Assembly: GCA_018771605.1 (NCBI GenBank)
Contig: CP076324.1
Location: 620,001 to 684,000, forward strand
Direction of reading: 5' to 3'
Source of the DNA: Aquificota bacterium
Lineage (GTDB): Bacteria > Aquificota > Aquificia > Aquificales > Aquificaceae
Length of the DNA stretch: 64,000 nucleotides
In this document: positions 12,328 through 61,336 of the stretch, one piece after another
How positions within the stretch are numbered: the stretch's first letter is position 1
Layout of the letters: each line of letters begins with the position of its first letter
The notes under the pieces: model-generated
What the model was told of the DNA's origin: nothing
What the model saw: the letters and a program-made list of their open reading frames with translations, nothing else
Databases searched by the model: none
Translations under genes and position numbers: made by a program

Positions 12328-12342
12328 AAAAAGTATTATAAT
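12315..12342. promoter_or_regulatory. Divergent promoter pair for rsmD (-) and speD leader (+)
   Basis: Plus strand: TTGCTT (12315-12320), 16 bp, TATAAT (12337-12342), predicting a start near 12349. Minus strand: TATAAT (complement of 12335-12340) 7 bp from the rsmD GTG. The two -10 boxes overlap, so the two promoters probably exclude each other. Confidence 0.6.
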
Positions 12343-12373: not shown

Positions 12374-12451
12374 ATGAAGCAGTTAAAACTGCTACAAAAA
12401 CTTGACAAGGAGGAGTGCAAATGGTCAAAGCCCTCGGACTGCATATCCTAG
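12374..12451 (+). CDS. Candidate 25-aa leader peptide upstream of speD
   Basis: An ATG at 12374, 8 bp after a strong AAGGAGG, opens a 25-codon frame (MKQLKLLQKLDKEECKW...) that runs 31 bp into speD in another frame. Its own coding sequence carries the speD ribosome site (AAGGAGG, 12407-12413). Translation of the leader would therefore pass over the speD initiation region, which suits coupling or attenuation control of polyamine synthesis. Nothing in the peptide identifies a family; it may simply be a fortuitous ORF. Confidence 0.45.
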   Translation: MKQLKLLQKLDKEECKWSKPSDCIS

Positions 12452-18779: not shown

Positions 18780-18785
18780 ATTATA
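18780..18785 (-). promoter_or_regulatory. -10 box of the CDF exporter gene, leaderless start
   Basis: Minus-strand TATAAT ends 6 bp before the ATG at 18773, so the mRNA would begin at or within a base or two of the start codon. No Shine-Dalgarno sequence is present between them. Confidence 0.6.
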
Positions 18786-18895: not shown

Positions 18896-18933
18896 GTTTA
18901 ATTGTCTCATTTATTTTAATTACAAAATTAAAT
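18896..18933. repeat. 38-bp direct repeat left of insertion sequence copy 1
   Basis: These 38 bases are repeated exactly at 19900-19937, immediately outside both ends of the 966-bp insertion sequence. The simplest reading is an exceptionally long target-site duplication. The sequence is very AT-rich (GTTTAATTGTCTCATTTA at its start). Confidence 0.9.
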
Positions 18934-19899
18934 ACGCCGAGTGAGAAATTCCCTTTAAGCTAAACCTTCCATATCAATAAAAAGACAGCAGGGCTACTAT
19001 AATAGTAGCTCTAAAAACCATCGGAGGTTTTTACCATGGAAATTATACCACCTTACCTACGCATCTACCAACAAATCCTAAAAGACCTTGAAAATGCCTT
19101 GCCATTCCTTAATGTGCCAAAAGCTAAAGCAGGCAGAAAGCCTAAACTCACAGACATCCATATAGCAGCCATCTTTATACTCTCCTACATAACCAATACA
19201 AAAGTCCTCACCTTAGCTAAACTACTTATTGACCCATCCATACAATCATGGCATATCTTCAGAAGATACAGACTCAAGAGAGTATACAGGATATTGAGAG
19301 AATACAAGCTTCACAAGCTGAGGCTTATGATTTTAGCAAGGCTTTTGTATGGTAAGAAGATAGAACTTGTAATAGATGGAACCATAGTGGACATAGCCAA
19401 TGTAAACAGGGCGAGGACACAGAAGATAAGGAGGGTAAGAGGGAAGGTATGGTGGGCAAAGAGGAGAAGGAAGATAGTTCGGAGAGACAATGGGAAGGTA
19501 GTGGAGTTTGAGGAGGTCAGGTATGGCATGTTGATGATGGTGTTATGTGATAGGTGGGGAAGAGTTTATGATGTGTGGATAAGCTTTGGAAGTGTGCATG
19601 AGGTTAGGGCATTTAGGGAAAGGAAGAGAAGGAGTTTATGGTTTAGGGGGCTTGTGGAGAATTGTGTGGTGTATGGAGATAGGGGTTATAGGGGCTGTGA
19701 AGGTGTTATTGTGTGTGATAGTAGGGAGATGAGGGCAAAAAGGCAGGTGGTGGAAGGTGTTATAAGTCAGATAAAGCTTTTCAATGCTGGTAGTGGGTGG
19801 AGGACTTTAACTTGTGTGCTTGTGTATGTATATGCTTATGCTATTGGATATAGCTATTATAGGAGGGGTGAACTTGAGGTCTAATTTCTCACCCGGCGT
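18934..19899 (+). mobile_element. 966-bp DDE insertion sequence, copy 1
   Basis: The ends are ACGCCGAGTGAGAAATT (18934-18950) and the complement of ACGCCGGGTGAGAAATT (19883-19899), 17-bp inverted repeats with one mismatch. One transposase gene fills the element. Upstream of it a near-palindrome (GCTACTAT-A-ATAGTAGC, 18993-19009) contains a TATAAT, and a second hairpin (AAAAACC/GGTTTTT, 19013-19032) places the ribosome site in its loop and stem just before the ATG, a usual guard against read-through expression. Copy 2 at 60371-61336 has the same length and ends. Confidence 0.95.
19036..19884 (+). CDS. DDE transposase of the 966-bp insertion sequence, copy 1
   Basis: 282 residues. An N-terminal helical DNA-binding part (AGRKPKLTDIHIAAIFIL) leads into an RNase-H-like core with a probable triad Asp114 (LVIDGTIVD), Asp215 (VYGDRGYRG) and Glu240 (RQVVEGVISQIK). 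The GDRGY and R-x3-E-x6-K patterns place it in the broad IS4/IS5/IS982-like DDE superfamily; I do not assign a narrower family. The product is strongly basic. It differs from copy 2 at three residues I could see (near residues 206, 210 and 226), so the copies are recent relatives. The frame is intact. Confidence 0.93.
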   Translation: MEIIPPYLRIYQQILKDLENALPFLNVPKAKAGRKPKLTDIHIAAIFILSYITNTKVLTLAKLLIDPSIQSWHIFRRYRLKRVYRILREYKLHKLRLMILARLLYGKKIELVIDGTIVDIANVNRARTQKIRRVRGKVWWAKRRRKIVRRDNGKVVEFEEVRYGMLMMVLCDRWGRVYDVWISFGSVHEVRAFRERKRRSLWFRGLVENCVVYGDRGYRGCEGVIVCDSREMRAKRQVVEGVISQIKLFNAGSGWRTLTCVLVYVYAYAIGYSYYRRGELEV

Positions 19900-23137: not shown

Positions 23138-23827
23138 TTAAACCACAGCCTGCCTTAGGGCAAGCACATCATCGGTGGCTATGGCATCCACTCCCCTCTC
23201 AAAAAGTTCCTTTGCCTTATTTATATCGTTTACAGTCCAGGCAACAACCTTAAGCTTTAACTTGTGGGCAAAATCCACAGCCTTCTGGGTGGCAAGGGGG
23301 TATTTTGGCAATACAAGAGAACATCCAAGCTTTTTAGCCTCTGGTATCATGCCCGGCGGCTTTGCATAGACAAGGCCTGTGGCCACCTTACCTTTGGCTA
23401 TCTCAAGGGCCTCAGGATAAAAGCTTATAAGGGCCGTCCAATCTGTGGCCTTTTTCTCTTCCAAAAGCCTTAGCACATCTTTTGTGTCCTCTGGATGTTT
23501 TATCTCCAAAAACATACCAACCCTACCATTTACAAGGTCAAGGGCTTCATCAAGCTTTGCAAGGCGATAGCCATCTTTATGCACCCCTTTTAAATCCTCC
23601 CACAGACTTTCCCTTATGTTTTTGCGTACACCGTAGGTCTTTTCTAAGCTTTCATCATGGCTAAGTACAAGCACTCCGTCCTTTGTTTTTTGAATGTCTA
23701 CCTCCACAATATCCGCACCATGCTTTATGGCACTTTCTATGGAATTAAGAGTGTTCTCAAGCTCCCTCACAGGATGCCCCCTGTGCCCCACAAGCACCTT
23801 TTTTGAAAAAAGTTCTAAAAGCTTCAT
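23138..23827 (-). CDS. Glycerophosphodiester phosphodiesterase
   Basis: 229 residues. The GDPD signature is intact: VGHRGHPVRELENTLNS, DIVEVDIQKTKDGVLVLSHDESL (metal-binding Glu/Asp and catalytic His), then FLEIKHPE and VVAWTVNDI. It hydrolyses glycerophosphodiesters to glycerol-3-phosphate and an alcohol; no signal peptide, so cytosolic (UgpQ-like). It diverges from yebC across only 16 bp. Confidence 0.92.
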   Translation of the reverse strand: MKLLELFSKKVLVGHRGHPVRELENTLNSIESAIKHGADIVEVDIQKTKDGVLVLSHDESLEKTYGVRKNIRESLWEDLKGVHKDGYRLAKLDEALDLVNGRVGMFLEIKHPEDTKDVLRLLEEKKATDWTALISFYPEALEIAKGKVATGLVYAKPPGMIPEAKKLGCSLVLPKYPLATQKAVDFAHKLKLKVVAWTVNDINKAKELFERGVDAIATDDVLALRQAVV

Positions 23828-23830
23828 GTG

Positions 23831-23837
23831 TATAATA
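23831..23837. promoter_or_regulatory. Shared -10 region of gdpD (-) and yebC (+)
   Basis: TATAAT on the plus strand ends 7 bp before the yebC ATG; on the minus strand TATTAT (complement of 23832-23837) ends 4 bp before the gdpD ATG. Both mRNAs should lack a leader. No convincing -35 box is seen for either gene. Confidence 0.5.
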
Positions 23838-23843
23838 TTTTAC

Positions 23844-24596
23844 ATGGCAGGACATAGTCATTGGGCGCAAATAAAACATAAGAAGGCAAAAGCTGATGCA
23901 CAAAGGGGTAAGATATTTACAAAGATAATACGTGAAATAACTGTGGCCGTCAGAGAAGGTGGACCAAACCCAGAAACAAATCCAAGGCTTAGGACTGCCA
24001 TAGAGAATGCAAGAAGGGTAAACATGCCATCAGACACCATAGAAAGGGCTATAAAGAAGGGAACGGGTGAGCTGGGTGGAGAAAACTACGAAGAGGTCTT
24101 ATACGAAGGCTACGCTCCTAACGGTGTGGCCCTTATGATACTTACCTACACGGACAATAGGAACAGGACCACCTCCGAAATTAGGCACATACTATCCAAG
24201 CACGGTGGAAATCTTGGGTCTTCTGGTTGTGTATCCTTCCTGTTTGATAGGGTGGGTATTATTGAAGTGCCAAAGGAAGGTGTAAGCGAGGAAGAAATAT
24301 ACGAAAAGGCCATAGAGGCTGGCGCAGAGGATGTGGAGGTGGGAGAACTAAACTATATCCTATACACAAAGCCAGAAGACCTATACCCTGTAAAGGAAGC
24401 CCTTAGCTCAATGGGCCTGCAGATAGAAAGGGCAGAAATAGCTTATAAGCCCAACAGCCTTGTGCAAGTTAATGATGTGGAAACAGCAAAGAAGATATTA
24501 AAGCTTATGGATGCCCTTGAAGACTTGGACGATGTGAAAGAGGTTATAGCCAACTTTGATATACCAAAGGATATAATAGACCAAGTTGGGCTCTAA
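23844..24596 (+). CDS. YebC/PmpR family protein
   Basis: 250 residues. Starts MAGHSHWAQIKHKKAKADAQ, the invariant YebC opening, and includes NPRLRTAIENARRVNMPSDTIERAIKKGTGE and the GSSGCVSFLFDR stretch. YebC proteins were described as transcriptional regulators and more recently as translation factors for difficult peptide bonds. The frame extends to 23694 inside gdpD, but the Met at 23844 is the conserved start. It converges on the prenyltransferase gene with a 4-bp overlap. Confidence 0.96.
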   Translation: MAGHSHWAQIKHKKAKADAQRGKIFTKIIREITVAVREGGPNPETNPRLRTAIENARRVNMPSDTIERAIKKGTGELGGENYEEVLYEGYAPNGVALMILTYTDNRNRTTSEIRHILSKHGGNLGSSGCVSFLFDRVGIIEVPKEGVSEEEIYEKAIEAGAEDVEVGELNYILYTKPEDLYPVKEALSSMGLQIERAEIAYKPNSLVQVNDVETAKKILKLMDALEDLDDVKEVIANFDIPKDIIDQVGL

Positions 24597-26908: not shown

Positions 26909-26936
26909 TTTACAGAAATTATACTACGTATATAAT
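26909..26936 (+). promoter_or_regulatory. Sigma-70-type promoter of ppx/gppA
   Basis: TTTACA (26909-26914), 16 bp, TATAAT (26931-26936). Initiation near 26943 would leave about five leader bases before the ATG at 26948 and no Shine-Dalgarno site. A minus-strand TATAAT (complement of 26918-26923) lies inside the spacer and could serve the divergent small acidic gene. Confidence 0.7.
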
Positions 26937-30171: not shown

Positions 30172-31714
30172 GAAGGTGTGTCAAAAATCCACTCTACCTA
30201 CAATTATGTTAAAATAACAAAGAGATGATAACCATAAGCACTAAGCTTTTATTCTCAAACTATCAAGACAAAGAGAAGGTCTTAAACCTAATGAGAATAT
30301 GGTCTTCTGCTATGAGATATGCCTACAAAAGACTTTCAGAAAGCATGGATATCAACACTTTAAGAAAGTTAATTCAAAATGTGTTTGGACTAAACGCAAG
30401 ATATTCACACTCAGCCATTGTTAAAGCACAAGCCTTGATGAAAGTAAGAAAAGAGAAAGGAGAAAGCTTAAAAAAGGTTATATTTGGCGGAAGAGATAAT
30501 TTTAGAAAATTGCAAAAAAGACATATAAACGGGAAAGACTACCAAAAGTTAAAAATACAATTCCAAGAGAGGAGAAAAGGCAATCTATACTCCATAGGAC
30601 AAGCAAATTGTAAAGGAAACCAAAACACAAGGATAGAAGTAAAAGAGGATAGGACCTATCTTAGAATAAACACAGGAGAAAGGCAATATGTATATGCCTT
30701 GATAAGTGCAGGGGATAGGATAGACAAGATTAAAGAGATAGCTTTTTCTGGAAGAGCATATACGGTAGAGCTAAAGCTAAGAGATGGCAATGTGTATGCT
30801 TACTTCACCATAGAGGAAGAATATCCACAGATAGAGATAACCAAAGCTTATGGAGTAATAGGCATAGACCTAAACGCCTATCCAAACCACATAGCTTGGG
30901 CTGAGACAGATGAATATGGAAACCTTTTAAGCTATGGTGAAATAGCTATGCCAGAACTGGGAAGTGGGAATGGCAATAAAAGAGACTATTACATCTGGAT
31001 ATACGCACATAGAGTTGTAAGCTTAGTTAAAGAGAAAGGAAAGGCAATAGTTATAGAGAAGTTAAGGATAAAAGACAAAGGAAAAAAAGGAGATTATTCT
31101 GGGAGGCTTTCAAGAAGGATAAGGCATAACTTTGCTTACAGAAAGCTATTAGAAAGGATAAAGCTACTTGCAAAAAGGAATGGCATAGAAGTGATAGAAG
31201 TAAATCCAGCCTACACATCCATCATAGGCATGTTAAAGTATGCACCGCAATACATGGTAAGCAAGGATGTAGCAAGTGCCTATGTGATAGCAAGAAAAGG
31301 CTTAGGACTAAAGGAAAAAGTGCCAAAGAATTATGTGGAGCTTCTTAGAAAGTTAAGCATAGAGGAGTTAAAGGAATTAAAAGAGTATGTGAGAGAAAAG
31401 GTAAAGAACGCTTATTTAAAAGCCAAGCATATGAAAGAGATAAGCTATTTAATAAAAAGCCTTGAGAGTGAGCCAAGGAGAGTATCTGAGCCTCTGGAAG
31501 GAACAAGCTTAGGTACTCAATTTAATCCATGGCGAGTTCTCAAGGTAGTGGTGCTAACCGCACTCTCCCCTGAGAGGGTCATAAGGGACCTCTCTGTCCT
31601 GAAAGATATTCTCTTTCGGGGCTTGTGGGGAGACCCGAAAAGGGCACGAGCTCCTACTGCAGGGGGTAGGGGCGTAGTCTGTGTGAAAACGCAGGCTATT
31701 TTTGAAACACCCTG
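30172..31714 (+). mobile_element. TnpB-only element copy 1, with inverted-repeat ends and target duplication
   Basis: Left end GAAGGTGTGTCAAAAAT (30172-30188); right end ATTTTTGAAACACCCTG (31698-31714), which is its inverted repeat at 14 of 17 positions. ATCACATAA flanks both sides (30163-30171, 31715-31723), a 9-bp target duplication (10 bp if the next G is counted). The cargo is a single tnpB-like gene with no tnpA. The insertion lies exactly at the stop codon of the NtrC-type regulator gene and 2 bp from the enhancer repeats, so it separates regulator from target operon without breaking either. Confidence 0.88.
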
Positions 31715-31715
31715 A
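30225..31715 (+). CDS. TnpB-like RuvC nuclease, zinc-ribbon-less type, copy 1
   Basis: 496 residues, longer than typical TnpB. Probable RuvC residues are Asp215 (GVIGIDLNAYP), Glu278 (AIVIEKLRI) and Asp348 (SKDVASAYVIARKGLG). The CxxC zinc ribbon normally between the last two motifs is absent; instead NPAYTSIIGMLKYAPQY is present, as in the TnpB-related branch of the IS200/IS605 accessory proteins. The last ~72 residues are encoded by the structured 3' region and may be a by-product of read-through or a real extension. The TGA stop uses the first base of the flanking target sequence. About 93 percent identical to copy 2 by eye. Confidence 0.9.
   Translation: MITISTKLLFSNYQDKEKVLNLMRIWSSAMRYAYKRLSESMDINTLRKLIQNVFGLNARYSHSAIVKAQALMKVRKEKGESLKKVIFGGRDNFRKLQKRHINGKDYQKLKIQFQERRKGNLYSIGQANCKGNQNTRIEVKEDRTYLRINTGERQYVYALISAGDRIDKIKEIAFSGRAYTVELKLRDGNVYAYFTIEEEYPQIEITKAYGVIGIDLNAYPNHIAWAETDEYGNLLSYGEIAMPELGSGNGNKRDYYIWIYAHRVVSLVKEKGKAIVIEKLRIKDKGKKGDYSGRLSRRIRHNFAYRKLLERIKLLAKRNGIEVIEVNPAYTSIIGMLKYAPQYMVSKDVASAYVIARKGLGLKEKVPKNYVELLRKLSIEELKELKEYVREKVKNAYLKAKHMKEISYLIKSLESEPRRVSEPLEGTSLGTQFNPWRVLKVVVLTALSPERVIRDLSVLKDILFRGLWGDPKRARAPTAGGRGVVCVKTQAIFETP
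31500..31714 (+). ncRNA. Putative omega (guide) RNA region of TnpB element copy 1
   Basis: The last 215 bp are almost identical to copy 2 and, where they differ, pairing is kept. Stem CCTAC (31653-31657)/GTAGG (31666-31670) becomes CCCGC/GCGGG in copy 2, two compensatory changes. Stem CTGTGT/ACGCAG (31679-31694, loop GAAA) becomes CTGTGT/GCACAG. Further GC-rich complementary segments (CTCTCCCCTGAGAG, GGGACC) lie upstream. In IS200/IS605 systems the reRNA/omega RNA ends at the element right end and takes its guide from the flank, here starting ATCACATAAGG. Confidence 0.65.
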
Positions 31716-35887: not shown

Positions 35888-35920
35888 ATAATATATCACC
35901 TGAATATGAGTTATCATAAT
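35888..35920. promoter_or_regulatory. Back-to-back -10 boxes of the binding-protein operon (-) and plsY (+)
   Basis: Minus strand TATTAT (complement of 35888-35893) ends 5 bp before the ATG at 35882. Plus strand TATCAT (35912-35917) ends 7 bp before the plsY ATG, with CATAAT three bases further on as an alternative. The whole gap is 42 bp. Confidence 0.45.
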
Positions 35921-41378: not shown

Positions 41379-42869
41379 TCAGGGTGTTTCAAAAATAGCC
41401 TGTGCTTTAACACAGACTACGCCCCCGCCCCCTGCAGCGGGAACTCGTGCCCATATAGGGTCTCCCCACAAGCCCCGAAAGAGAATATCTTTCAGGACAG
41501 AGAGGTCCCTTATGACCCTCTCAGGGGAGAGTGCGGTTAGCACCACTACCTTGAGAACTCGCCATGGATTAAATTGAGTACCTAAGCTTGTTCCTTCCAG
41601 AGGCTCAGATACTCTCCTTGGCTCACTCTCAAGGCTTTTTATTAAATAGCTTATCTCTTTCATATGCTTGGCTTTTAAATAAGCGTTCTTTACCTTTTCT
41701 CTCACATACTCTTTTAATTCCTTTAACTCCTCTATGCTTAACTTTCTAAGAAGCTCCACATAATTCTTTGGCACTTTTTCCTTTAGTCCTAAGCCTTTTC
41801 TTGCTATCACATAGGCAGAAGCTATATCCTTGCTTACCATGTGTTGTGGTGCATACTTTAGCATGCCTATGATGGATGTATAGGCTGGATTGACTTCTAT
41901 CACCTCTATGCTGTTCCTTTTTGCCAATAGCTTTATCCTTTCTAACAATTTCCTATAAGCAAAGTTATGTCTTATCCTTCTTGAAAGCCTTCCCGAATAA
42001 TCCCCCCTTTTCCCTTTGTCTTTTATCCTTAACTTCTCTATCACTATTGCCTTTCCTTTCTCTTTTGCTAAGTCCATAACCTTGTGTGCATATATCCAAG
42101 TGTAATAGTCTCTCTTATTGCCATTTCCACTTCCCAGTTCTGGCATAGCTATTTCACCATAGCTTAAAAGGTTTCCATATTCATCTGTTTCAGCCCAAGC
42201 TATATGGTTTGGATAGGCATTTAGGTCTATGCCTATTACTCCATAAGCTTTGGTTATCTCTATCTGTGGATATTCTTCTTCTGCAGTAAAGTAAGCATAT
42301 ACATTACCATCTCTTAGCTTAAGTTCCACAGAGTAAGCCCTTCCAGAAAAGGCTATCTCTTTAATCTTCTCTATCCTATCCCCGGCACTTATCAAGGCAT
42401 ATACATACTGCCTTTCTCCTGTGTTTATCCTAAGATATGTCCTATCTTCTTTTACCTCTATCCTTGTGTTTTGGTTTCCTTTTGAGTGTTTTTGTCCTAT
42501 GGAATAGAGATTACCTTTTCTCCTCTCTTGGAATTGGATTTTTAATCTTTGATAGTCTTTTCCGTTTATATGTCTTTTTTGCAATTTTCTAAAAATGTCC
42601 CTTCCACCAAAGATGACCTTTTTTAAGCTTTGTCCTTTTTCTTTTCTTACTTTCATCAAAGCTTGAGCTTTAACAATGGCTGAGTGTGAATATCTTGAGT
42701 TTAGTCCAAACGTGCTTTGAATTAGCTTTCTTAAAGTGTTTATTTCCATGCCTTCTAAGAGTCTTTTGTAAGCATATCTCATAGCCGAGGACCATCTTCT
42801 CATTAGGTTTAAGACCTTCTCTTTGTCTTGATAGCTTGAGAATAAAAGCTTAGTGCTTATTGTTATCAT
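41379..42869 (-). CDS. TnpB-like RuvC nuclease, zinc-ribbon-less type, copy 2
   Basis: 496 residues, the same length as copy 1, with the same GIDLNAYP, VIEKL and SKDIASAYVIARKGLG motifs and no CxxC ribbon. About 35 substitutions separate the two, spread over the protein (for example LEGME for SESMD near residue 40, and YYTWIYAHKVMDLAKE for YYIWIYAHRVVSLVKE). The frame is intact, so both copies could be active. The TGA stop again takes its last base from the flanking target sequence. Confidence 0.9.
   Translation of the reverse strand: MITISTKLLFSSYQDKEKVLNLMRRWSSAMRYAYKRLLEGMEINTLRKLIQSTFGLNSRYSHSAIVKAQALMKVRKEKGQSLKKVIFGGRDIFRKLQKRHINGKDYQRLKIQFQERRKGNLYSIGQKHSKGNQNTRIEVKEDRTYLRINTGERQYVYALISAGDRIEKIKEIAFSGRAYSVELKLRDGNVYAYFTAEEEYPQIEITKAYGVIGIDLNAYPNHIAWAETDEYGNLLSYGEIAMPELGSGNGNKRDYYTWIYAHKVMDLAKEKGKAIVIEKLRIKDKGKRGDYSGRLSRRIRHNFAYRKLLERIKLLAKRNSIEVIEVNPAYTSIIGMLKYAPQHMVSKDIASAYVIARKGLGLKEKVPKNYVELLRKLSIEELKELKEYVREKVKNAYLKAKHMKEISYLIKSLESEPRRVSEPLEGTSLGTQFNPWRVLKVVVLTALSPERVIRDLSVLKDILFRGLWGDPIWARVPAAGGGGVVCVKAQAIFETP
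41380..41594 (-). ncRNA. Putative omega (guide) RNA region of TnpB element copy 2
   Basis: 215 bp homologous to 31500-31714. The first ~135 bases (element orientation) are identical to copy 1; the differences after that preserve stems (CCCGC 41437-41441 with GCGGG 41424-41428; CTGTGT with GCACAG, 41400-41415). Amino-acid sequence in the same stretch changes at several positions, so RNA shape is better kept than the protein. The guide would start AGAAGGTAGG, reading into the neighbouring decayed element. Confidence 0.62.
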
Positions 42870-51177: not shown

Positions 51178-51476
51178 TGGGAGACTTTACAAAGGCAGGA
51201 CTGGATAAGGGAGACATTGAGAAGGAGTTGGAGCATGTGCTTATATCCGCCAAGATGCTATACAGAAGCTATTTAGCCACCATAGAGGACCTAACGGCGG
51301 AAGAGCTAAGGTATGACCTTGAGGAATACAGGGACCAATTGAAGAAAAACATCATGCCCTTGGTAGGCAGGGCAGAGGCCACAAGGAACAAAAAGTTCAT
51401 AAACATGGCCTACGAAATAAGATACCTTTATGAGAAGATCATAGAGTCTATAGAGCAGAGGCTAAATAGCTTTTGA
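51177..51476 (+). CDS. Helical protein of unknown function
   Basis: 99 residues from the ATG at 51177, which shares its first base with the upstream stop. Almost wholly helical and charged (GDIEKELEHVLISAKMLYRSYLA...), no signal peptide and no Cys. The frame is also open to 51156, but the later start fits the coupled pattern. It converges on the flagellar sigma gene with a 29-bp overlap. No family recognised. Confidence 0.7.
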   Translation: MGDFTKAGLDKGDIEKELEHVLISAKMLYRSYLATIEDLTAEELRYDLEEYRDQLKKNIMPLVGRAEATRNKKFINMAYEIRYLYEKIIESIEQRLNSF

Positions 51477-52134
51477 GCTTTTCTATGGCAGAGCTTTTTA
51501 TCTGAGAGATTCTTGCCATAGATACACCTAAAAGCTTTGCTACCTCTTTGAGGGGTAGCTCCTCATAGTATAGTAGCTGGAGAACAAGTTTTTCTTTCTC
51601 CTCAAGCCTTTCTATGGCCTTTAAAAGCTTCTCTCTTAGGTCCTTTTTTATTACAACCTCTTCTGGGCCCTCCTCTTTGCTTTCAAATAGCTCCTCATAG
51701 CTTCTTCCCTCAAAAAATATCTCCTCAAGGCTCATAAGGTATGAAAAGCTTATGGCTTGAAGGTCCTCTTTTAGCCTTTCTGGGTCCTCTCCGAGAAACT
51801 GAGCCAATTCTTCATCGCTTACCTCCTTTCCCTTTTCCATGCTTAGCTTTTCTAAGGCCTGCCTTATGGCCTTTTCCTTAGACCTTACATTCCTGCTTGC
51901 AAAGTCAATGCTTCTCAAATAGTCATACATGGCTCCCTTTATGCGTAGCTTTAAGTAGGCTGTGGGGTTCCTATTTTTGTCAAGCTTTGGAAGGGCTTCC
52001 ACAACTGCAAGCACACCGTAGCCTATTAGGTCCCTAACATCTACGGACCTTGGCAAGTGCCTGTAAAGCCTATAGGCTATCTGCTCAACCAAAGGAAGGT
52101 AAGATAGAACAAGCTCCTTTTCTTCTGCTGTCAT
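51448..52134 (-). CDS. fliA: Flagellar-type RNA polymerase sigma factor (FliA/sigma-28)
   Basis: 228 residues. Sigma-70 region 2 (LVEQIAYRLYRHLPRSVDVRDLIGYG, GAMYDYLRSIDFASRNVR) and region 4 (LVLQLLYYEELPLKEVAKLLGVSMARISQI) with the short region 3 of the FliA/WhiG class. The RGAMYDYLR-type stretch is typical of FliA. flgK and flgL follow 0.9 kb away on the other strand, supporting the flagellar assignment. Confidence 0.9.
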   Translation of the reverse strand: MTAEEKELVLSYLPLVEQIAYRLYRHLPRSVDVRDLIGYGVLAVVEALPKLDKNRNPTAYLKLRIKGAMYDYLRSIDFASRNVRSKEKAIRQALEKLSMEKGKEVSDEELAQFLGEDPERLKEDLQAISFSYLMSLEEIFFEGRSYEELFESKEEGPEEVVIKKDLREKLLKAIERLEEKEKLVLQLLYYEELPLKEVAKLLGVSMARISQIKSSAIEKLKSYLASAL

Positions 52135-52160
52135 TGAAAATATTTTAAAATCTTTGGAAG

Positions 52161-52952
52161 ATGAAGATATACAGGCTTGGAAAACTTTCCAACATGTTCT
52201 CCACTACCCTCTTCCATGCCATGGCAGAGTTTGGCTATGAAGGTTTAATCCTGTGCGAGCCGGAGGATACTTACGTAAGCCTTGGCTACTTTGATAAGGC
52301 AGAGGAGCTTATAGACCTTAAAAGATGTAAGGAGCTTGACATAGGTGTTATACGGAGGCAAACGGGCGGTGGTGCGGTGCTTTTGGCACCGGGTCAGGTT
52401 TTCTATCAGCTTTTATTGTCTAAAAGTAAAGTGCCTTTCAAAGTGGAAGATGCCTACAGGAAACTATCTCAGCCAGTCATAAGGGCTTACAGAAGGCTTG
52501 GTGTAGAGGTAGAATATAAGCCCATAAACGACCTTGTGGTAAAGGAAAGTCAAAGGAAGATAAGCGGTCAAGGTTCTGCCGATATAGGAAAGCTCTTTGT
52601 CTTTGTTGGAAACATTTTAATACGCTTTGACCCAGACCTTATGGCAGAGCTTTTTGCTCTAAAAGATAAAAATCAAAGAGAGTTGGTAAGAAAAAGCCTT
52701 TGGGACAATATAAGCTGGCTGGAGAGAGAACTAAGAAGGGAAGTAAAATCTGAAGAGGTGGTGGAAGTGCTTGTTGAGGAGTTTTCAAAGGATTTTGAAT
52801 TTGAAGGCTATGGTAGTGTGCCACAGGAGGCATTTGAGCTTGCGGAAAGGCTAAGGGAAGAGATGACCTCGGAGGAGACCATTCTTGAAGATACGGGAAG
52901 AAGGCACAAAGCCATAAAGATTAGGGAAGGTGTTTATGTGGAAATTAAATAA
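52161..52952 (+). CDS. Lipoate-protein ligase / lipoyl transferase family protein
   Basis: 263 residues. IRRQTGGGAVLLAPGQVFYQLL corresponds to the RRxSGGGAV motif and KISGQGSADIGKLFVFVGNILI carries the catalytic Lys of LplA/LipM enzymes. It would attach lipoate or octanoate to a carrier such as the GcvH-like protein at 10942. Sulfur oxidisers use dedicated ligases (sLpl) for LbpA; whether this is one cannot be decided here. Diverges from fliA across 26 bp. Confidence 0.83.
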   Translation: MKIYRLGKLSNMFSTTLFHAMAEFGYEGLILCEPEDTYVSLGYFDKAEELIDLKRCKELDIGVIRRQTGGGAVLLAPGQVFYQLLLSKSKVPFKVEDAYRKLSQPVIRAYRRLGVEVEYKPINDLVVKESQRKISGQGSADIGKLFVFVGNILIRFDPDLMAELFALKDKNQRELVRKSLWDNISWLERELRREVKSEEVVEVLVEEFSKDFEFEGYGSVPQEAFELAERLREEMTSEETILEDTGRRHKAIKIREGVYVEIK

Positions 52953-57378: not shown

Positions 57379-57867
57379 TTCTTCCTCCAGTTTTTTGTTC
57401 ATCTCCTTTACTTTTTCCCTTAATTTTTCTTGGTATTCATCCAGCCTTTTGGCAAGCTCTGGGTACTTTATGGATAGTATTCTTACAGCCAAAAGGCCTG
57501 CGTTGGTACCGTTGCCTATGCCTACGGTTGCCACAGGCACTCCTGCTGGCATCTGCACTATGGAATAGAGAGAATCCACACCGGAAAGATGCTTGGAAGG
57601 CACTGGCACGCCTATAACAGGCAATGTGGTCATGCTGGCAGTCATGCCCGGAAGGTGGGCAGAGCCTCCCGCGCCGGCTATTATAACCTCTATGCCCCTC
57701 TCCCTTGCACTCTTTGCATACTCATACATAAGCTCTGGAGTCCTATGGGCCGATACTACCTTTACCTCACAGGGAACGCCAAATTCCTTTAAAACCTCGT
57801 AGGCTGGCTTTAGCCACTCCCAGTCGGAGAGGCTCCCCATGATTATCCCCACCAAAGGCCTTTCCAT
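57373..57867 (-). CDS. purE: N5-carboxyaminoimidazole ribonucleotide mutase
   Basis: 164 residues, class I Pur[30 protein letters not shown], and [25 protein letters not shown] are the family motifs, with the catalytic His in SAHRT and GGSAHLPG. It acts in purine synthesis. It overlaps the cyclase 3' end by 6 bp (convergent). TAAAAT 7 bp from the ATG is its likely -10. Confidence 0.96.
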
Positions 57868-57870
57868 GCA

Positions 57871-57880
57871 TATAATTTTA
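57871..57880. promoter_or_regulatory. Overlapping -10 boxes of purE (-) and ferredoxin (+)
   Basis: TATAAT (57871-57876) ends 8 bp before the ferredoxin ATG; TAAAAT on the minus strand (complement of 57875-57880) ends 7 bp before the purE ATG. The gap between the genes is 17 bp. Confidence 0.5.
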
Positions 57881-57884
57881 AGTC

Positions 57885-58424
57885 ATGAAAAGACCTGTTA
57901 TGCTTATAGACCTTGATAGATGTATAGGCTGTCTTTCCTGCGAGGTTGCCTGCAAGCAAGAGAAAGGCATTGAAAACTTTGACATAAGACCGATGAAAGT
58001 CTTCAGAGTTGGTGGCATAGGAGAGAAGCCTGACGCCTTCTTTTTGCCTATGAACTGCTTTCACTGTGATCCTGCTCCTTGTGTTTATGCCTGTCCTACC
58101 TCCGCCATGAGAAAGAGAGAGGATGGCATAGTCTATGTGGAAGAGCTAAGGTGTATTGGATGTAAGGCTTGTATAATTGCCTGTCCCTATGGAGCTATAA
58201 GCTTCAATCCAAGCACCATGAAGGTGGAAAAGTGCGATTATTGCTATAAAAGGGTAGAAAAGGGTCTTTTGCCCTCCTGCGTATCAAAATGCGTGACCAA
58301 CTGCCTCTATTTTGTAGAGCTGGAAGACATTCCAAAGGAAAGGCATATAGCCAAAAGGATAGACTCGGAGCTATATAGAGAGCTTTTTAGTTGGAAGTCA
58401 AAAGAAGAAGTCTTTAAGGTTTAG
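57885..58424 (+). CDS. Four-cluster ferredoxin subunit, DmsB/HycB/CooF-like
   Basis: 179 residues. Cys clusters: CIGCLSCEVAC, CFHCDPAPCVYAC, CIGCKACIIAC and CDYCYKR..CVSKC, i.e. four 4Fe-4S sites in the order of electron-transfer subunits of molybdopterin enzymes, hydrogenases and CO dehydrogenase. The catalytic partner is not adjacent, so its role is open. Overlaps the prepilin peptidase 3' end (convergent). Confidence 0.9.
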   Translation: MKRPVMLIDLDRCIGCLSCEVACKQEKGIENFDIRPMKVFRVGGIGEKPDAFFLPMNCFHCDPAPCVYACPTSAMRKREDGIVYVEELRCIGCKACIIACPYGAISFNPSTMKVEKCDYCYKRVEKGLLPSCVSKCVTNCLYFVELEDIPKERHIAKRIDSELYRELFSWKSKEEVFKV

Positions 58425-59156
58425 CATAGTTCCCACAAAGACACCAAGGGACAAAAAGGGCCCGTAGGGCAGTGCAAACTGCATGCTTTTGTTTTTGACA
58501 ATTATGGGAAGGGCATACAAAAGGCCCAAAAGAGATCCCAGAAAGACGGCGTATATTACACCCCATACACCAAAGGCAGAGCCTATAAAGGCCATAAGCT
58601 TTACATCGCCAAAGCCAAGCCCTTCTATTTTTCTTAGCTTTTTGTAGTAGAGGTATATAAGGAAAAAGGAAATAAAGCCCAAAAAGGCCCCCAAAAGGCT
58701 CTCCTTTATGCCAAGGTCCTGTCTAAAGAGAGACGTCAAAAGGCCCAAGGCCAAACCGCCAAGGGTAAGACTGTCGGGAAGGGTAAAGGTGTCCCAGTCT
58801 ATAAGGCTTGCCACCAAAAGTATGGAGAAGAAAAGGAAAAAAAGAGAGGACATAAAAAGGTCTTCAAACTTTATTTTGCAAAGGAGGGCAAGAAGGCCAG
58901 TAAAGAGTTCCACCAAAGGGTACCTTATGGATATCTTTTCTTTGCAGTGTCTACACCTTCCTTTTAGAAGAAGATAGGATAGAACTGGTATGTTGTCATA
59001 CCATCTTATCCTTTTTTGACAGTGAGGGCAATGAGATGGTGGTGAAAGGATGGATATGTTCCTGGGTAGCCTGTAGATGATTACGTTATAAAAACTACCA
59101 AGGGCCAGGCCAATGGCAAAGATAAACACATACTCTAATACTTGAACTGGCTCCAC
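58398..59156 (-). CDS. Prepilin peptidase / N-methyltransferase (A24)
   Basis: 252 residues from a GTG start. The N-terminal methylase part has two Cys pairs (CPHCQKRIRWYDNIPVLSY and CRHCKEKISIRYP); the peptidase Asp residues are in DWDTFTLPD and GFGDVKLMA. Eight membrane helices. It processes type IV pilins or type II secretion pseudopilins. The start lies 22 bp from the divergent thioredoxin-like gene. Confidence 0.93.
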   Translation of the reverse strand: MEPVQVLEYVFIFAIGLALGSFYNVIIYRLPRNISILSPPSHCPHCQKRIRWYDNIPVLSYLLLKGRCRHCKEKISIRYPLVELFTGLLALLCKIKFEDLFMSSLFFLFFSILLVASLIDWDTFTLPDSLTLGGLALGLLTSLFRQDLGIKESLLGAFLGFISFFLIYLYYKKLRKIEGLGFGDVKLMAFIGSAFGVWGVIYAVFLGSLLGLLYALPIIVKNKSMQFALPYGPFLSLGVFVGTMLNLKDFFF

Positions 59157-59177
59157 CTTGGGCTAAAATTATAAAAC

Positions 59178-60370: not shown

Positions 60371-61336
60371 ACGCCGGGTGAGAAATTAGACCTCAAGTTC
60401 ACCCCTCCTATAATAGCTATATCCAATAGCATAAGCATATACATACACAAGCACACAAGTTAAAGTCCTCCACCCACTACCAGCATTAAAAAGCTTTATC
60501 TGACTTATAACACCTTCCACTACCTGCCTTTTTGCCCTCATCTCCCTACTACCACACACAATCACACCTTCACAACCCCTATAACCCCTATCTCCATACA
60601 CCACACAACTCTCCACAAGCTTCCTAAACCATAAACTCCTTCTCTTCCTTTCCCTAAATGCCCTAACCTCATGCACACTTCCAAAGCTTATCCACACATC
60701 ATAAACTCTTCCCCACCTATCACATAACACCATCATCAACATGCCATACCTGACCTCCTCAAACTCCACTACCTTCCCATTGTCTCTCCGAACTATCTTC
60801 CTTCTCCTCTTTGCCCACCATACCTTCCCTCTTACCCTCCTTATCTTCTGTGTCCTCGCCCTGTTTACATTGGCTATGTCCACTATGGTTCCATCTATTA
60901 CAAGTTCTATCTTCTTACCATACAAAAGCCTTGCTAAAATCATAAGCCTCAGCTTGTGAAGCTTGTATTCTCTCAATATCCTGTATACTCTCTTGAGTCT
61001 GTATCTTCTGAAGATATGCCATGATTGTATGGATGGGTCAATAAGTAGTTTAGCTAAGGTGAGGACTTTTGTATTGGTTATGTAGGAGAGTATAAAGATG
61101 GCTGCTATATGGATGTCTGTGAGTTTAGGCTTTCTGCCTGCTTTAGCTTTTGGCACATTAAGGAATGGCAAGGCATTTTCAAGGTCTTTTAGGATTTGTT
61201 GGTAGATGCGTAGGTAAGGTGGTATAATTTCCATGGTAAAAACCTCCGATGGTTTTTAGGGCTACTATTATAGTAGCCCTGCTGTCTTTTTATTGATATG
61301 GAAAGTTTGGCTTAAAGGGAATTTCTCACTCGGCGT
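60371..61336 (-). mobile_element. 966-bp DDE insertion sequence, copy 2
   Basis: Same length and terminal repeats as copy 1, in reverse orientation: ACGCCGGGTGAGAAATT at 60371-60387 and the complement of ACGCCGAGTGAGAAATT at 61320-61336. It has landed about 90 bp upstream of sorA, separating that gene from any farther control sites. It contains one transposase gene and the same leader hairpins. Confidence 0.95.
60386..61234 (-). CDS. DDE transposase of the 966-bp insertion sequence, copy 2
   Basis: 282 residues, the same as copy 1 except for three positions seen (Gly to Lys and Asn to Ser near residues 206-210, Asp to Gly near 226). Triad LVIDGT, GDRGY and VVEGVIS intact. The substitution near 226 lies between the second Asp and the Glu and does not touch the triad. 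Confidence 0.93.
   Translation of the reverse strand: MEIIPPYLRIYQQILKDLENALPFLNVPKAKAGRKPKLTDIHIAAIFILSYITNTKVLTLAKLLIDPSIQSWHIFRRYRLKRVYRILREYKLHKLRLMILARLLYGKKIELVIDGTIVDIANVNRARTQKIRRVRGKVWWAKRRRKIVRRDNGKVVEFEEVRYGMLMMVLCDRWGRVYDVWISFGSVHEVRAFRERKRRSLWFRKLVESCVVYGDRGYRGCEGVIVCGSREMRAKRQVVEGVISQIKLFNAGSGWRTLTCVLVYVYAYAIGYSYYRRGELEV

Follow-up and report, generated by a model that had tools for sequence, protein, structure and literature searches.

Near-start -10 hexamers point to leaderless first genes and shared promoters of divergent genes in the Aquificaceae

TATAAT-like hexamers stand directly before the start codons of many divergently oriented genes in a heat-loving bacterium taken as a member of the family Aquificaceae, the label of most of its closest yebC relatives in a named collection. 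They are very probably sigma-70-type -10 elements that give leaderless or nearly leaderless first-gene mRNAs and that are shared by closely packed divergent pairs, a reading that rests on sequence comparison. The -10 element would be placed so that transcription starts at, or a few bases from, the start codon, and about one third of the divergent first genes would be transcribed as leaderless or nearly leaderless mRNAs. Judging from other organisms, 70S ribosomes most likely initiate on the 5'-terminal AUG of such messages. A second class of first genes would carry the same -10 about 26-40 nt upstream, with a short leader that contains a Shine-Dalgarno (SD) site. The near symmetry of TATAAT would let closely packed pairs share overlapping -10 elements, and where both transcription starts fall on start codons, the 18-bp distance between starts that bidirectional promoters prefer would become the intergenic gap. 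The stretch of DNA analysed, hereafter the window, is the 64 kb at 620001-684000 of a genome that consists of one contig (1,722,082 bases).

The original prediction named a set of starts in the window as leaderless, preceded by a near -10 and by no SD site. With the near -10 taken as a TATAAT-like hexamer (TA...T core, no more than one mismatch) whose end lies 4-11 nt before the start, this stands for nine of the 11 starts, which have no credible SD site; the exceptions are speD and a small acidic gene, which are SD-led and leadered. The gene names proposed from the translations (purE, ferredoxin, gdpD, yebC, rsmD, speD, CDF exporter, ppx, substrate-binding protein, plsY) each agree with matching Pfam families, and the small acidic protein matched no Pfam family. 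The intergenic region between gdpD and yebC consists of positions 23828-23843. On the plus strand, TATAAT at 23831-23836 lies 7 nt before the ATG (23844) of yebC (TACO1/YebC; 23844-24596; PF01709, PF20772), which is predicted to be leaderless and whose start is fixed by the conserved MAGHS N-terminus. On the minus strand, TAAAAT at 23837-23842 lies 9 nt before the ATG (23827) of gdpD (GDPD; 23138-23827; PF03009), predicted to be leaderless or nearly so, and an alternative, TATTAT at 23832-23837, lies 4 nt before the same codon. The gdpD element falls off the 6-8 nt mode of the spacing and is the weaker half of this pair.

Similar arrangements recur at the other sites. The ferredoxin gene has TATAAT at 57871-57876 on the plus strand, 8 nt before its ATG at 57885; it overlaps by 2 bp the TAAAAT of purE (57875-57880, minus strand), which lies 7 nt before the ATG at 57867. 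TATAAT precedes the GTG of rsmD (12327) by 7 nt (12335-12340, minus strand), and the overlapping plus-strand TATAAT at 12337-12342 faces speD, where it would give a leadered transcript with an SD site and an upstream ORF; speD is preceded by AAGGAGGT, a 25-codon upstream ORF (ATG 12374) and AAGGAGGAG (ATG 12422). The CDF exporter gene (PF01545) has TATAAT at 18780-18785 on the minus strand, 6 nt before ATG 18773. The element of ppx/gppA (PF02541), TATAAT at 26931-26936 on the plus strand, is 11 nt from ATG 26948, a spacing that makes a leader of a few nucleotides likelier than none. For both off-mode genes, gdpD (9 or 4 nt) and ppx (11 nt), the spacing probably reflects a weaker promoter or a leader of a few nucleotides. 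Opposite ppx, the small acidic gene has its TATAAT at 26918-26923 on the minus strand, 27 nt before ATG 26890, and the SD site AAAGGAGAG in the leader. The substrate-binding protein gene (ABC-type; PF04392) has TATATT at 35890-35895 on the minus strand, 7 nt (or 5) before ATG 35882, and plsY (PF02660) has TATCAT at 35912-35917 on the plus strand, 7 nt before ATG 35925. An SD-like match at the 35882 start is 13 nt away and abuts the upstream side of the hexamer, and it was treated as chance.

Further examples lie beyond the sites first named, all in genes with Pfam matches. A sigma-70-family gene has TAAAAT at 52142-52147 (minus strand), 7 nt before ATG 52134, and a lipoate-ligase-like gene has TAAAAT at 52146-52151 (plus strand), 9 nt before ATG 52161. 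A thioredoxin-like gene (TAAAAT, 59164-59169, plus strand, 8 nt before ATG 59178) faces a prepilin-peptidase gene (TATAAT, 59168-59173, minus strand, 11 nt before GTG 59156), and their elements overlap by 2 bp. Altogether a near hexamer (at most one mismatch, 4-11 nt) was found in 15 of the 24 divergently oriented genes of the window. It may be added that the sigma-70-family factor gene (51448-52134, minus strand) is itself predicted to be leaderless, and that it has a 26-bp spacer in common with the lipoate-ligase-like gene (52161-52952, plus strand).

Wider counts were made in a sample of this genome consisting of the window and 20 stretches of 20 kb (464 kb). Genes were called by a dicodon model, and starts were selected on coding score and start codon without reference to either the hexamer or the SD site; all starts are computational calls. 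A gene is divergent when its upstream neighbour lies on the opposite strand; genes open at the 5' end, with no upstream neighbour in the stretch or starting less than 100 nt from its end were left out. The motif and its spacing can be read directly: among divergent genes the spacing peaks at 6-8 nt, with 8 nt the commonest value in this genome and in genome G016. A -10 with the TA..T core about 12 bp upstream and no SD site before the same start, the combination that characterizes TA-led leaderless genes, was found. A near -10 occurs in only 1 of 40 SD-led divergent genes of this genome against 58 of 122 non-SD ones, an exclusion that is partly forced because both elements compete for the same bases. 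With a hexamer of at most two mismatches, the excess over control puts the predicted-leaderless share of divergent genes at 32-39%; many first genes show neither a near -10 nor an SD site.

The base before the start codon agrees with transcription starting close to it. A pyrimidine is expected at -1 before a purine transcription start site, and it occurs at -1 of the ATG in 317 of 385 genes with a near -10, against 435 of 772 SD-led genes (P 2.5e-19). By spacing, the fraction is 0.90, 0.74, 0.86 and 0.79 at 6, 7, 8 and 9 nt, and 0.73 and 0.77 at 10 and 11 nt; at 3-4 nt the pyrimidine is almost as common as at 6-9 nt, and in genes with neither signal the fraction is 0.57. Since it is still frequent at 10-11 nt, the pyrimidine supports a start near the ATG and does not fix the start base. 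These data bear on the possible, if rather unlikely, case that the transcripts have very short leaders (1-5 nt) rather than being strictly leaderless, which would be functionally similar and overlaps the preferred explanation. The commonest spacing of 8 nt puts the canonical start 2 nt before the ATG, leaders of 1-5 nt are compatible with spacings of 8-11 nt (as for ppx and the gene starting at 59156, both at 11 nt), and the pyrimidine shows no sharp drop beyond 9 nt; its fraction of 0.74-0.90 at spacings 6-9 nevertheless favours a start on the A of the ATG.

The divergent pairs provide the most characteristic geometry. In the family, 325 pairs were sampled with two sets of starts, one by coding score ('best') and one that prefers short gaps ('joint'); 24 and 4 pairs, respectively, were set aside for negative gaps, and 13 and 12 for gaps above 400 bp. 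Against a flat null taken from 24-80 bp, which is crude, gaps of 16-19 bp are in excess with 'best' starts (23 seen, 8.1 expected, P 1.5e-5), and gaps of 3-12 bp are nearly absent (2 seen, 20.4 expected). With 'joint' starts, 34 pairs have gaps of 16-19 bp (9.0 expected) and 6 have gaps of 3-12 bp. The commonest gap is 17 bp, so that the start codons are 18 bp apart. In the sister-family genome G036 only 1 of 38 pairs has a gap of 0-29 bp. Hexamers with up to two mismatches were then counted on each side at 4-11 nt; with 'best' starts, this count covered 301 of the 325 pairs. At gaps of 13-22 bp with 'best' starts, they stand on both sides in 29 of 40 pairs and on one side in 10, and SD sites on none of the 80 sides; with 'joint' starts, on both sides in 40 of 62 pairs, with SD sites on 5 of 124 sides. 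At gaps above 120 bp ('best' starts), hexamers stand on both sides in 7 of 84 pairs, and 67 of 168 sides have an SD site. That -10 elements overlap on opposite strands, as had been proposed, was borne out: among 'joint' pairs with gaps of 13-24 bp, 40 of 70 have hexamers on both sides, and in 35 of those they overlap by 2-5 bp.

Bidirectional promoters, in which one symmetric -10 drives divergent transcription from starts 7-25 bp apart, most often 18 bp, have been described in Escherichia coli and Salmonella, where the divergent RNA is often non-coding (PMC10268837; PMC12825309); in the present pairs, each transcript appears to begin at a start codon. The word 'leaderless' is absent from the main texts of these two articles. 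In sequence geometry, the Aquificaceae pairs have the corresponding features, overlapping -10 elements on both strands and a commonest distance of 18 bp. The agreement of the 17-bp gap with this 18-bp spacing is the main new point, and from geometry we infer that back-to-back pairs often seem to share one promoter within a spacer of about 17 bp. A study by Warman et al. in 2021 reportedly also dealt with bidirectional promoters. It is doubtful, though far from negligible, that overlapping hexamers have merely been packed by genome compaction, with only one direction of each pair strongly active. Matches to the -35 element are weak, and both-side hexamers occur in just the 40 of 70 pairs with gaps of 13-24 bp, in varied registers; yet in the shortest gaps there is no SD site on either gene, and the near spacing is retained on the two sides of most pairs. 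The possibility of a -35 element lying within the neighbouring gene on the other strand was considered as well. TTGACA matches (at least 4) at 16-18 bp occur in 91 of 432 genes with a near -10, against 58, 66 and 55 of 432 at three control spacings, and for gaps of 13-24 bp in 10 of 54 against 5, 5 and 8, so that only a weak excess over control spacings is seen and no such element is claimed.

The hexamer also precedes genes that have no start codon. Searches in the samples of three genomes and the window found 29 tRNA genes, of which five located downstream in clusters were left out. The hexamer lies 9-14 nt upstream in 17 of the remaining 24, as compared with 0, 1 and 1 of 24 in equal windows at 28-33, 35-40 and 42-47 nt, and within 25 nt in 19 of 24, where base shuffles give a mean of 5.7 and a maximum of 11. 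Among divergent genes of six family genomes, it lies 26-40 nt upstream in 73 of 161 SD-led genes against 59 of 539 non-SD ones. These positions make it improbable that the hexamer is a translation signal, such as an A/U-rich standby site for ribosomal protein S1, on transcripts that start further upstream. S1 sites have been raised as an alternative for the A/T bias near the -10 position (Nakagawa 2017, PMC5397173), and a long S1 match is present in the family. Still, the hexamer keeps its TA..T core, precedes tRNA genes and stands 26-40 nt before SD-led genes; it also pairs on opposite strands in gaps of 16-21 bp, where any other promoters would enter the neighbouring gene. Among the phylum's families, an S1 model gave near full-length matches in all tested members of f1 (the family of the window), f2 and f3, matched with its first 340 positions only in three f4 genomes, and matched weakly in the single f5 genome. 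In this genome, the only one in which it was read, the anti-SD of the 16S rRNA is intact; IF3 and S21 were found in 21 of 21 genomes. No translation-machinery correlate of the family emerged, because IF3 and S21 are universal and S1 does not separate f1 from f2 and f3.

The hexamer set as a whole was also compared with random expectation. In the 464-kb sample, the hexamer lies at 6-9 nt in 56 of 162 divergent genes, whereas 200 dinucleotide shuffles gave a mean of 7.9 and a maximum of 19. At 5-9 nt it is found in 59 of 162, and nine control windows of equal width gave 3-24, the highest (24) being that at 29-33 nt, which itself corresponds to a second class of genes. In five other family genomes the counts at 6-9 nt are 32 of 109, 36 of 100, 28 of 117, 43 of 145 and 27 of 67 divergent genes, against shuffle means of 3.6-6.1, and each exceeds all 200 shuffles. 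No excess was found at 6-9 nt in G036, which belongs to a sister family of the same order and is more A+T-rich (31% GC): 2 of 78, with a shuffle mean of 4.4. Although intergenic regions are A+T-rich and single sites could be chance, the notion that such DNA yields TATAAT-like words everywhere is refuted for the whole set by the shuffles, the positional controls and G036, and is very unlikely indeed. The prediction that many first genes have leaderless or nearly leaderless starts is well supported by the spacing, the shuffles, the relatives, the negative sister-family genome and the pyrimidine at -1.

A scan of 121 genomes of the phylum, in which the frequency of TATAAT-N6-8-ATG was divided by that of the same pattern read backwards, places the signal within the phylum; because pattern and control are not alike in word content, these ratios are approximate. 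The family of the window has a ratio of 3.10, with at least 1.5 in 51 of 56 genomes and five members below 1.5. The ratio is 0.98 in f3 (0 of 36 genomes at 1.5 or above), 0.49 in f2 (1 of 7), 1.21 in f4 (4 of 21) and 0.92 in the single f5 genome; the exceptions in f2 and f4 come from small counts. The TATAAT-near-ATG signal therefore appears largely confined to the family of the window. This contrast within one phylum, between a leaderless-rich family and sister families nearly without the signal, may be useful for asking what lets leaderless initiation evolve, a question to which IF3, S21 and the anti-SD offer no ready answer.

The division into leaderless first genes and SD-led internal genes had been proposed as a two-mode system; it persists as a trend and breaks down as a strict rule, with exceptions in both directions. 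In six family genomes, an SD match of at least 5 nt precedes 161 of 700 divergent genes (46 in the same scan further upstream), and a near -10 precedes 136 of 1395 close same-strand genes (positional control 25.0). SD matches are found in 548 of the 1395 (control 199). Strong AGGAGG sites inside operons, another element of the proposal, are common and not general, as 109 of 253 genes of this genome whose same-strand neighbour ends within 15 bp have an SD match of at least 5 nt. The mode of initiation is set gene by gene and not strictly by operon position. Initiation is most likely mixed, with about one third of divergent genes predicted to be leaderless or nearly so, others SD-led from a -10 placed further upstream, and internal genes SD-led or devoid of either signal. 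In the 136 same-strand cases (gap at most 15 bp), the near -10 lies inside the preceding gene, suggesting intra-operon leaderless promoters.

Conservation of the elements was followed at two loci. At yebC, 13 same-genus genomes gave a match; in 12 of them TATAAT stands 7-10 nt before the start, despite a differing upstream neighbour, and in the remaining one (G007) the distance is 18 nt. Among more distant members of the family, some loci show the near hexamer and others an SD site, a few having neither; of the sister-family loci read, most have an SD site. Starts of purE were taken from tblastn comparison, as the start-extension rule overshoots in some loci. Beside this start, TATAATTTTA is retained in 11 of 13 same-genus loci, and TAAAAT lies exactly 7 nt from the ATG in 10 of 13. 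The gene opposite purE varies: in 10 of 13 a small gene precedes ferredoxin, in 2 of 13 (this genome and L261) ferredoxin takes the slot, and in L252 no gene was seen between purE and ferredoxin, which has its own TATAAT. In the three genomes of the 13 with no preceding gene, TATAAT ends 6-8 nt before the ferredoxin start, which lacks an SD match. In the other 10 this gene has no near TATAAT, and an SD match of at least 5 in four, of just 4 in four and none in two; its start is uncertain in L251 and L260. By eye, L256 and L257 seem to have an SD-led right-hand neighbour of purE, at about 29-31 bp, so the slot beside purE is not always leaderless. The small gene (L250, L251, L253-L260; missing in the window) has about 87-136 codons and a W..RM...QY-like stretch.

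Taken to its simplest form, the Aquificaceae arrangement would have as its minimal pair unit one symmetric -10 of 16-19 bp that serves as promoter and entire spacer of two leaderless divergent operons. The orientation of the polymerase alone would pick the operon, start codons would double as transcription starts, the trait would have been gained or kept essentially in one family, and genes would swap between leaderless and SD-led initiation on entering or leaving the slot; for this full proposal the balance of judgement is even. The mode of the ribosome, the 5' ends and activity in both directions enter it by inference; overlap on opposite strands, conservation and family distribution are observed. 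If the reading is correct, gene spacing by itself could be used to predict transcription starts, as well as coupled expression, for many divergent operons. In these genomes, gene callers that rely on SD sites may set starts wrongly.

Leaderless genes have already been predicted in Aquificae, including Aquifex aeolicus, from TAtaaT about 12 bp upstream of the start; the signal was reported in two of five genomes, at 20.7-32.4%, with operon-distal genes usually needing an SD site (Zheng et al. 2011, PMC3160421). The hexamer is of the same kind here, and the present work adds another genus, controls and orthologue switches. The word 'divergent' is absent from the text of that article, and the passages of it consulted hold no family-level map. 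The family-level map, the spacing of shared -10 elements in divergent pairs and the orthologue switch are new. In Deinococcus, -10 motifs adjoining ORFs were proven by experiment to be promoters of leaderless genes (PMC12340547, 2025). The Deinococcus-Thermus system resembles the present one in a -10 a few bp upstream, a leaderless product, a spacing requirement and a -35 acting as an optional enhancer; it differs in phylum and in being experimental where the present one is predicted from sequence. Its main text does not contain 'divergent', 'bidirectional' or 'Aquific'. In Sulfolobus, proximal genes are leaderless and distal genes use SD sites, as cited by Zheng et al. (PMC3160421), the same division of labour with an archaeal promoter and ribosome, whereas the Aquificaceae show exceptions in both directions. 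An unpublished start of A. aeolicus 6S/pRNA obtained by deep sequencing is mentioned in PMC4227106; in those parts of the literature covered by the search, neither a genome-wide 5'-end map for a member of the Aquificaceae nor leaderless pairs on a shared -10 were reported.

Several minor features of the window were also observed. A short repeat, AATTTCTCACTCGGCGTA (no more than one mismatch in the core), is dispersed over four places near gene starts, at 18933, 41085, 60370 and 61325, and inspection by eye showed similar strings before yebC in some relatives. Two pairs of equal-length ORFs have look-alike upstream regions, 19036-19884 and 60386-61234 (282 codons) and 30225-31715 and 41379-42869 (496 codons). 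Both pairs lack a Pfam match above the cut-off, with one weak Cas12f1-like_TNB hit; they are perhaps insertion-sequence genes. The upstream ORF of speD (12374-12451, plus strand) has a strong SD site and precedes and overlaps speD, an overlap that constrains its 3' part. The only two other speD loci found among the loci sampled (L129, L230) have a similar layout, with 25 codons in the same-genus locus and 28 in the other, which suggests a conserved leader peptide or coupling at speD.
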